Shown: positions 12,001 through 48,886 of the stretch, piece after piece
How the letters are laid out: every line of letters begins with the position of its first letter
Numbering within the stretch: the first letter of the stretch is position 1
DNA from: Utricularia gibba
Taxonomy: Eukaryota > Streptophyta > Magnoliopsida > Lamiales > Lentibulariaceae
Assembly (NCBI GenBank): GCA_002189035.1
Contig: NEEC01000004.1
Location: 5,332,001-5,396,000, forward strand
Length of the DNA: 64,000 nt
Direction of reading: 5' to 3'
Translations under genes and position numbers: made by a program
Notes under the pieces: model-generated
The model's input: the letters and a program-made list of their open reading frames with translations, nothing else
Told to the model about the DNA's origin: nothing
Databases searched by the model: none

Positions 12001-13892
12001 TGTAGAATTGGCGTACAGAGATTTTCTTATGACTTCAAGCAAGTGGTTGTCAAGCAGATCAACGGATGTATGCTTAACTCTGAATTCAAAAATCTAAAAA
12101 TCATCAGACCCCTATTTCTTCAATTACACTCATCCTTTATATGTGATTTTTCAGAAACCTATTGGTCTGCTTGCATTGGGAATAACTTCAATGCTCGTCT
12201 CTTGTGGGTTATTTTTTAAACTTCTATTGCTTCTTGAGCAAGAAAATAGTTTTGGAAGACATCGGAAGCTTTCTTCTGTTGATCAAATCATACGCAGATG
12301 GCATTTGGATGAGGTTTTTGCTGCCGGAGTGGTTGTTATCCTCGTTGTAAGTATGGGTTCAAGTTCGATGATTGAAGAAGAGCAGTACATTTGGCATTAC
12401 ATGACATCATCTTTGTATTTGATATTTCTCAAAACAATGAATTTCACCAAAGGAAGCAATGAGTCGAAATCAGCTTCCAGGCAGAAAAAAACTACATTGC
12501 GTAGCGTGCTTTATATTATTGCTGTTCTCATATCTGGCAGGCTTCTGAGAGGTTGGCATCAAGGTGGTGTCAATTGGTCTTATCTACCAGATATCTCAAA
12601 ACTGCTGTCAGAAGCTGGATCTGTTCATGTCAAATCCCTGCATTTAGTTTCACTCTTTATTGTCCTTCTCTGTTCTGCACATTTATATGCATTAAGACTG
12701 AAGATACCCGGAGCTCTGTTGATGATGCTGATTCATGTATTTCCTTCTATTATGGTTGTGATACAAATCTGGAGAAGCAGAGAAGAGGGCATATTCATAT
12801 CATCAGTTGCTGATGCTACTTCAATGGTGCAAGTGATTTATGCTCTTCTAGGGATTTCTACAGTGGGGATCCTTGTTTCAACACCATGGTTACTGCCTCT
12901 TCGTAATCCTCGACTTTCACAAAATGACTTAAAATCCTCTGAAGTTCTAAGAGAAACTGGACATGAATTTCCGCAGAGAAGCTTCATAGATTCTGTACAT
13001 ATAATTGGATGTTCCTACATTTTTTCCTGGAGCCTACTACAAATAGTGGTGCAACAGCCCATAAATTCCATGCCAGCTTCTTTAATTGTTTTGCAACTCC
13101 TGGCTACTGCCTACTATTTTTCTCAGGGTGGTGGGTTACATATCAAGCAATGGATCAAGGTCAGTCGCTTGAAACACATCAGGCTTACACTTTGTGTTAC
13201 ACCAATGCCCTCTACAGATTTATTCTTTTTTCAATCTCTTAGGTTGCTGCATTTTACTATTTGGGAATGGCTGGCCACTTTGCTCTTGGCAATACCAACA
13301 CTCTTGCTACTATTGATGTTGCTGGTGCATTCATTGTATGCTTCATTATAGTTTCCTTACACATTGTTCTCCTGTTCTTTCCCAATATCTGTTTCATTTC
13401 AGTGATCATTTGCAGGGCGTCTCAAGCCACTCAACTGTCATTTCTGGTATCCTGATGTTCTGTATAACATATGCCTCCCCAATGCTCTCTCTTCTTAGCA
13501 TGCTTATGGTTGTTCCAATCAATAACTCGAGGATCATCAACGCCAATGTTGATCTAGAACTCCTCAAGTCAAGCCTTGCCTACCCATGTCTAGTTCCACT
13601 CGGAATCAATTCCATTCTCCTCCTCGCGTACACAATCGTGCTGCTGGCCATGAGAAACCATTTGTTTGTTTGGAGCGTCTTCTCTCCAAAGTAAGCCACA
13701 GTTCCCTTATTATCTAACATGTTTCTTCCAAAGTTCTGTAAACAGGGATGATTATGTTTCTTTCTGCAAACCAGGTATCTGTACATCTGTGCAACTACAG
13801 CCTGTGTTTATCTCGGCACATCAGCTGTTGCATTTGCCACGACTTACAGTTACATTGTACTCTGCATACGAAGATACCGTGCCTGCCGTTAG
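9097..13892 (+). CDS. PIGG: GPI ethanolamine phosphate transferase 2 (PIGG/GPI7)
   Basis: Seventeen exons fit in phase: 9097-9242, 9372-9468, 9607-9651, 9741-9908, 10001-10085, 10188-10294, 10462-10542, 10655-10707, 10779-10881, 10993-11127, 11433-11529, 11676-11883, 11986-12067, 12155-13159, 13243-13335, 13416-13690, 13775-13892; 965 residues. The enzyme adds ethanolamine phosphate to the second mannose of the GPI anchor in the ER. After an N-terminal anchor helix (VVIQVVGLSLFVMGFF) comes the alkaline-phosphatase-like lumenal domain: VVDGLPAEFVLG (metal site), TVTMPRIK (nucleophile Thr), LHYLGLDHVGHIDG and LILSDHGMTESGNHGG. The C-terminal half from exon 14 is a chain of about a dozen membrane helices. 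LGLDHVGHIDG followed by PKLKEMDEV is typical of PIGG rather than PIGO or PIGN. An upstream in-frame ATG at 8968 is taken as leader. Confidence 0.93.
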
Positions 13893-14168
13893 ACAAGAAA
13901 CAAGACAACAAATGCCATCTGTACGTGTCATTTAACAAACAACTGTCCCATTGAGGTATCATAACATTAACCCATGTGAAAAGACAGCATTTTTTTGTCC
14001 TGATTTTAGGGTTTAGGGTTTAGGGTTTACGAAGATACCGTGCCTGCCGTTAGAAAGAAACAAGACAACAAATGCCATCTGTACGTGTCATTTAACAAAC
14101 AACTGTCCCATTGAGGTATCATAACATTAACCCATGTGAAAAGACAGCATTTTTTTGTCCTGATTTTT
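13867..14168. repeat. tandem duplication of the PIGG 3' end, about 140 bp per copy
   Basis: Copy 1 (13867-14007) begins in the last codons of PIGG and includes its stop; copy 2 (14028-14167) repeats it almost exactly. The only difference I see is TTAGACAAGAAAC in copy 1 against TTAGAAAGAAAC in copy 2, plus a longer T run at the end of copy 2. The copies are separated by plant telomere repeats. PIGG coding sequence is unaffected because it stops in copy 1. Confidence 0.95.
14005..14029 (+). repeat. interstitial telomeric repeat, (TTTAGGG)3 TTTA
   Basis: Three perfect TTTAGGG units plus TTTA sit exactly between the two copies of the duplicated segment. TTTAGGG is the usual plant telomere unit. 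The flanking TTTT and TA give one or two bases of microhomology on each side. Confidence 0.97.
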
Positions 14169-26596: not shown

Positions 26597-27753
<1,157 letters not shown>

Positions 27754-48641: not shown

Positions 48642-48886
48642 CTTGGGCTTGATCTAGTTATTCCCACTCGGCCCAAAATTCATATTACATGGGCTTCATC
48701 TACTGGAGGCCCAATACGTAGCAGTAGAATCTCACTTGGCTTGTGCTAGTTATTCCCAATTGGCCCAGACGTCATATTGCATGGGCTTCATCTACTGGAG
48801 GCTCAATAAGTAGTAGTCTAAGCCCAATAACGTGAGCTTCGTCTACCTAAGGCCCAATACGCAGCAATCTAAGCCCGATAACGCGA
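48642..48886 (+). repeat. diverged tandem repeat, about 90 bp per unit, rich in TGGGCC/GGCCCA
   Basis: Unit 1 at 48642-48734, unit 2 at 48735-48823, partial unit 3 at 48824-48886. Shared phrases include CTAGTTATTCCCA, CATGGGCTTCATCTACTGGA and GGCCCAATACG. Units 1 and 2 differ at roughly one base in seven by eye. Confidence 0.88.

Follow-up and report, generated by a model that had tools for sequence, protein, structure and literature searches.

A telomere-repeat tract at the seam of a recent tandem duplication in the 3' end of a PIGG-type gene of Utricularia gibba

Organization of the locus

The window analyzed here, a stretch of 64,000 nucleotides of Utricularia gibba DNA, carries the upstream exons and the last coding exon of a PIGG-type gene (Table 1). 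The last exon of this PIGG/PIGO-domain gene ends with ...RYRACR* (...IVLCIRRYRACR-stop), and its final codons belong to a segment that occurs twice in tandem, with a short telomere tract at the seam between the two copies.

Table 1. Features of the PIGG-gene locus, in positions of the window.
Feature	Position	Strand	Description
Upstream exons, PIGG-type gene	12143..13694	+	GPI ethanolamine phosphate transferase membrane region; Pfam PF19316, E 1.3e-9 and 1e-7
Last coding exon, PIGG-type gene	13776..13892	+	YLYICATTACVYLGTSAVAFATTYSYIVLCIRRYRACR*; frame closes within copy 1
Copy 1	13867..14007	+	141 bp; end of the PIGG coding sequence with stop TAG, then the beginning of the 3' flank; ends ...TGATTTT
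Telomere tract (TTTAGGG)3TTTA	14005..14029	+	Seam; TTT common with copy 1, TA with copy 2
Net insert between copies	14008-14027	+	20 bp, AGGGTTTAGGGTTTAGGGTT
Copy 2	14028..14167	+	140 bp; one C fewer; then TTTGTGTC

An earlier note on this DNA had described a tandem 141-bp duplication at the PIGG end, with three TTTAGGG units plus TTTA between the copies, and both statements were confirmed. The duplication was evident from direct reading, from TRF analysis, which returned an array of period 160 with a 99% match at 13867-14167, and from exact repeats, which paired 13867-13893 with 14028-14054 and 13895-14007 with 14055-14167. The telomeric array was detected by TRF with a period of 7 and 3.6 perfect copies, and it measures 25 bp (3 units + TTTA) when the edge letters shared with both copies are included. 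The sole difference between the two copies is a C at 13894, which is missing in copy 2. As this base is located directly past the stop codon in A-rich surroundings, the difference may stem from an indel error left over from long reads, in which case the copies would be fully identical. A chance origin of the 141-bp tandem copy is excluded as impossible, and two-unit telomere matches in the 64-kb window numbered 3, against 0.07 expected per shuffle. A second two-unit TTTAGGG tract occurs at 26720-26733 of the window, where a flanking duplication was not found. At positions 48646-48883, degenerate tandem repeats of periods 92 and 51 overlap each other and contain GGCCCAATAA motifs.

A search of the whole assembly (100,091,633 bases in 516 contigs) returned no second copy of the gene or of the duplicated segment, and no paralogue giving the empty site. 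As the genome has only one such locus, the repeat arose by duplication on the spot and not by insertion of a paralogue from elsewhere. The telomere-bearing end of the contig (5,667,865 bases) is about 322 kb away from the tract. The structure spans about 160 bp and is located deep within its 5.67 Mb contig; single reads would cover it if the assembly was built from long reads, and its junctions follow the same rules as those at other loci of this genome. These observations speak against a chimeric or mis-stitched long-read stretch. We therefore regard an artefact of assembly or library preparation as quite improbable, even though the round sizes of some contigs (8,500,000; 6,192,500) hint at chunked processing. 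The sizes of contigs C1, C2, C409, C505 and C507 of the assembly (G000) are all multiples of 500 (8,500,000; 6,192,500; 2,492,500; 3,452,500 and 642,500, respectively), which suggests trimming at processing chunks.

No substitution was detected between the copies across 140 aligned sites. At assumed plant rates of 6e-9 to 1.5e-8 substitutions per site per year, the 95% upper bound for the age of the duplication is about 0.7-1.8 million years, in agreement with the recent event that had been claimed. The gene had also been described as left with a doubled stop and 3' UTR segment. The doubling is real as DNA, with stops at 13890-13892 and 14051-14053, while its consequences for PIGG were overstated: the second stop falls in the 3' flank, and the PIGG-type protein is unchanged by the duplication because the reading frame closes inside copy 1, ahead of the seam.

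Junction letters and interior telomere tracts in the genome

The outer edges of the copies, namely ...CTCTGCA to the left of copy 1 and TTTGTGTC to the right of copy 2, were used to deduce the site as it would have been before the event. It would have read ...CTCTGCA followed by the segment TACGAAG...CCTGATTTT and then by TTTGTGTC, and the empty site would thus appear as ...TGCATACGAAG...CCTGATTTTTTTTGTG. As copy 2 continues into TTTGTGTC, the right cut of the original site probably fell in a run of 7-8 T. The letters TTT on the left of the seam and TA on its right agree with the telomere register as well as with the original site; the probability of sharing letters at a random site is 0.067 for at least 2, 0.017 for at least 3 and 0.004 for at least 4 letters. 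Extension of an end by telomerase, which the earlier note had put forward, predicts an in-register TTT and a 2-nt TA microhomology. Both are present, the TTT register being less telling with a cut within a T-run.

Interior tracts of at least two perfect units were then surveyed throughout the genome by a boundary-pattern search, fetched with their flanks and reduced to 76 distinct loci. Contig-end tracts were excluded as true telomeres, and the set leaves out tracts ending in GGGTT followed by C, A or G, variants that are abundant in the end arrays. Each locus was scored by the length of the longest perfect direct repeat that touches the tract and has its second member no more than 200 bp away on the opposite side. 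A direct repeat of at least 12 bp touched the tract at 7 of the 76 loci, the PIGG-gene locus and L054 among them, against 0.20 expected when mismatched flanks from different loci were used; other TTTAGGG tracts with flanking direct duplications, for which a genome check had been proposed, were thus found. Control points reached 12 bp in 12 of 1140 cases at the same loci and in 8 of 2897 cases in the window (Fisher P = 8e-5 and 3e-8, respectively), with a threshold that was picked after the data had been seen and with 12-bp repeats that include the in-register letters, so that their detection is favoured. At a threshold of 10 bp the corresponding figures were 10 of 76 loci and 2.7% (same-locus) or 0.9% (window) of the controls, and an initial screen of 64 loci over a shorter distance had returned 4 with a flanking repeat against 0.19 expected. 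This enrichment supports break repair as a general cause of interior tracts. Among interior tracts of at least 3 units, a flanking duplication was found at none besides the PIGG-gene locus. The duplications at the other survey loci are much shorter (8-16 bp), and two of these loci show unexplained filler (19-22 bp).

The latter two, L073 and L035, are organized as copy, filler, (TTTAGGG)2 and copy. In L073 (G000:C1:6577310-6578720) a 16-bp direct repeat, GGTGAATTTGTGCTTC, surrounds about 20 bp of filler and two TTTAGGG units. L035 (G000:C244:1591140-1592540) and L036 (C247), which are probably one locus represented twice on two contigs, carry a 13-bp direct repeat, TTTACATAATTCA, around the insert GATTAGGGTAAAAAATCTAAAA plus (TTTAGGG)2, and their filler itself contains TTAGGGT. 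The 19-22 bp filler ahead of the tract in L073 and L035 indicates that untemplated or copied additions also happen. The letters shared with the original site at the 3' (right) junction are GGT at L073, TTTA at L035, GGTTTA at L038 and GGT at L080, with a selection rule that favours letter sharing at L038 and L080 and affects the PIGG-gene locus, L073 and L035 much less. The pattern of the junctions fits a G-strand tail produced from one break end, with its 3' tip annealed to the other end.

Some candidates were discarded upon inspection. L054, which is still counted in the 7 of 76, was rejected as an instance of the same structure, its tract being itself duplicated within a tandem repeat of about 190 bp, and at L039 the duplication is older, degenerate and does not adjoin the tract. 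L107 (12 bp) and L104 (10 bp) are borderline. L048/L049 and the L074, L071 and L018 groups were rejected as independent events, being copies of repeats. At L048 and L049 (G000:C98, near 254,261 and 256,883) two copies of the tract with its flanks lie 2.6 kb from each other and point in opposite directions, forming an inverted duplication. L074, L075, L079, L083, L090 and L094 constitute a repeat family with the common context GGATTTATAGGG-TTTAGGGTTTAGGG-TAAACCTCGTTT, in which a telomere-like tract has spread within the repeat, and L071, L076, L082, L084 and L085 constitute a second family with a two-unit telomere tract. L018, L019 and L031, on three contigs, share a nearly identical flank that runs into TTTAGGG and variant repeats, an arrangement that resembles a moved subtelomere.

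The occurrence of some two-unit tracts within repeat families (the L071, L074 and L018 groups), and the existence of telo boxes as plant regulatory motifs, would be in line with a telo box or a mobile element in the 3' flank having a function for the gene. However, telo boxes work in 5' regions (PMC3022908), whereas the tract at the seam is single-copy and lies 3' of the stop codon, and the insert is devoid of element-like ends, which makes such a function hardly credible at this locus.

Proposed origin of the duplication and of the insert

We consider it likely that the locus is the scar of a staggered break in which both overhangs were filled and telomerase extended an end prior to rejoining. 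A tandem duplication of this size requires that both overhangs of a staggered break be filled before the ends are joined, which is the usual way in which small tandem duplications arise. At the gene 3' end, one nick in each strand, separated by about 141 bp, would have generated a staggered double-strand break, and copying of both overhangs would have left the 141-bp segment at each broken end. The 3' strand of the left end, terminating in TTTT within the T-run, would then have primed telomerase, with TTT pairing in register and AGGGTTTAGGGTTTAGGGTTTA being added. Finally, the TA at the tip of this tail would have paired with the TA of the other end and the break would have been sealed, giving as end product copy, 20-nt telomeric insert and copy, with the coding sequence intact. 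The sequence itself shows the anatomy of the locus, the letter register, the microhomology, the single-copy state, the near identity of the copies and the excess of flanking repeats at other telomere tracts, whereas we infer the offset nicks, the order of the steps and telomerase as the source of the units.

CST is the fill-in complex at telomeres, and the genome encodes TERT (Telomerase_RBD, E 1.2e-33) and bears TTTAGGG arrays at contig or chromosome ends. As telomerase acts on single-stranded 3' ends, the scheme would be neatest with 3' overhangs and fill-in by CST-Pol alpha; 5' overhangs would lead to the same product, and both the polarity of the overhangs and the participation of CST are presumptive. 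Since a 3' overhang ending in TTTT can serve as a telomerase primer, TERT is present and CST fills telomeres, one telomere-like processing of the break would account for the duplication and the insert alike.

The same staggered break and duplication might instead have been completed with captured or template-copied telomeric DNA filling the seam, from a broken telomere, an extrachromosomal telomere circle or through polymerase theta. End joining often captures filler from other places, this genome offers interior telomere repeats, non-telomeric filler stands beside the tract at L035 and L073, and a short tract of perfect units could equally derive from captured telomeric DNA; capture has indeed been named as an alternative to telomerase (PMC2246262). 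Against it, the insert continues the TTT of the break end in register at its left edge, and the seam tract is perfect while the chromosome-end arrays are rich in TTCAGGG and other variants, the tract being too short for this comparison to decide. We consider capture unlikely, while giving it some weight.

Extension by telomerase and capture both place duplication and insert in one event. Two separate events, with an ordinary patch-repair duplication and a telomere insertion at its seam at a different time, are very improbable: each process does occur alone, as many interior tracts are found without a duplication and tandem duplications without a tract, but the insert sits exactly at the seam and has letters in common with both edges, where an independent hit would hardly be expected. 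The structure thus supports the earlier note in joining the tandem duplication and the telomere insert at the seam in a single event.

Significance and comparison with known systems

Taken singly, the PIGG-gene locus is a neat yet ordinary scar. Its seam records the order of events, and its signature, a direct repeat plus an in-register telomere run, can be counted in any genome. The locus also links two ideas on plant repair that are usually kept apart, namely duplications arising from offset nicks and telomerase acting at internal 3' ends. A more general view, in which bladderwort telomerase and telomere-style fill-in regularly repair staggered breaks and leave duplication-plus-telomere scars, is tentative and appears rather doubtful to us. 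If true, these scars would keep a dated account of break repair, legible in the sequence, for a lineage in which break damage has been held responsible for the small genome. COX1 (contig C515) reads SLLLLCCSALVEVG in this assembly, with an adjacent Cys-Cys pair. Such a pair is reported from all Utricularia species and from one section of Genlisea, and a rise in break damage tied to this change has been put forward as a driver of genome shrinkage in Utricularia (PMC11688529). Scar counts over Lentibulariaceae would represent a direct test of this proposal.

Tandem duplications of 50-200 bp are routine in plants. In rice, tandem duplications make up the most frequent type of insertion, with an enrichment at 50-200 bp, and are attributed to the repair of adjacent nicks (PMC7971508); the same paper cites Vaughn and Bennetzen 2014 and Schiml 2016 for the patch-repair model. 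The bladderwort locus is similar in its local tandem copy of that size range, with direct 141/140 bp copies of a sequence unique in the genome, and differs in the telomere-repeat filler added at the seam. In mammalian cells, tandem duplications form at 3'-overhang breaks by CST-guided Pol alpha fill-in, and they resemble our locus in the filling of overhangs and in the telomere-associated complex; the system is mammalian and a telomerase insert is not described in the sections of that report consulted here (PMC8355091). According to the telo-box model, plant telomerase adds units at internal free 3' ends, yielding about one unit, in 5' regions and without a duplication, unlike the bladderwort seam (PMC3022908). 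In a plant review, break repair is named only as one way in which short tracts could arise (PMC8621592). A plant telomere tract at the seam of a tandem duplication was not found in the literature searched, which covered few subscription papers and may have missed such a case.

The closest parallel is offered by mammalian short ITS at double-strand breaks. Duplications at sites of telomere-repeat insertion were reported for 6 of 130 events in rodents and for 4 of 25 in primates (Nergadze 2007, PMC2246262), and simple duplications at 3 of 66 horse loci, where a figure legend describes a staggered-break insertion with in-register GG (2020 horse and human study, PMC7215372). Short perfect interior repeats, break-end letters in register and a target duplication attributed to a staggered break are shared with our locus, which shows an interior, non-subtelomeric, perfect tract of 25 bp, in-register letters (weakened by the T-run) and a 141-bp duplication. 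Subtelomeric or fusion ITS consist of degenerate or head-to-head arrays, whereas the seam tract is perfect, single-orientation and far from the contig end. The bladderwort locus differs from the mammalian ones in the plant repeat TTTAGGG, in the 141-bp length of its duplication and in an empty site that is only deduced. This class of scar is already known from mammals, and the bladderwort locus is a clean plant example of it.
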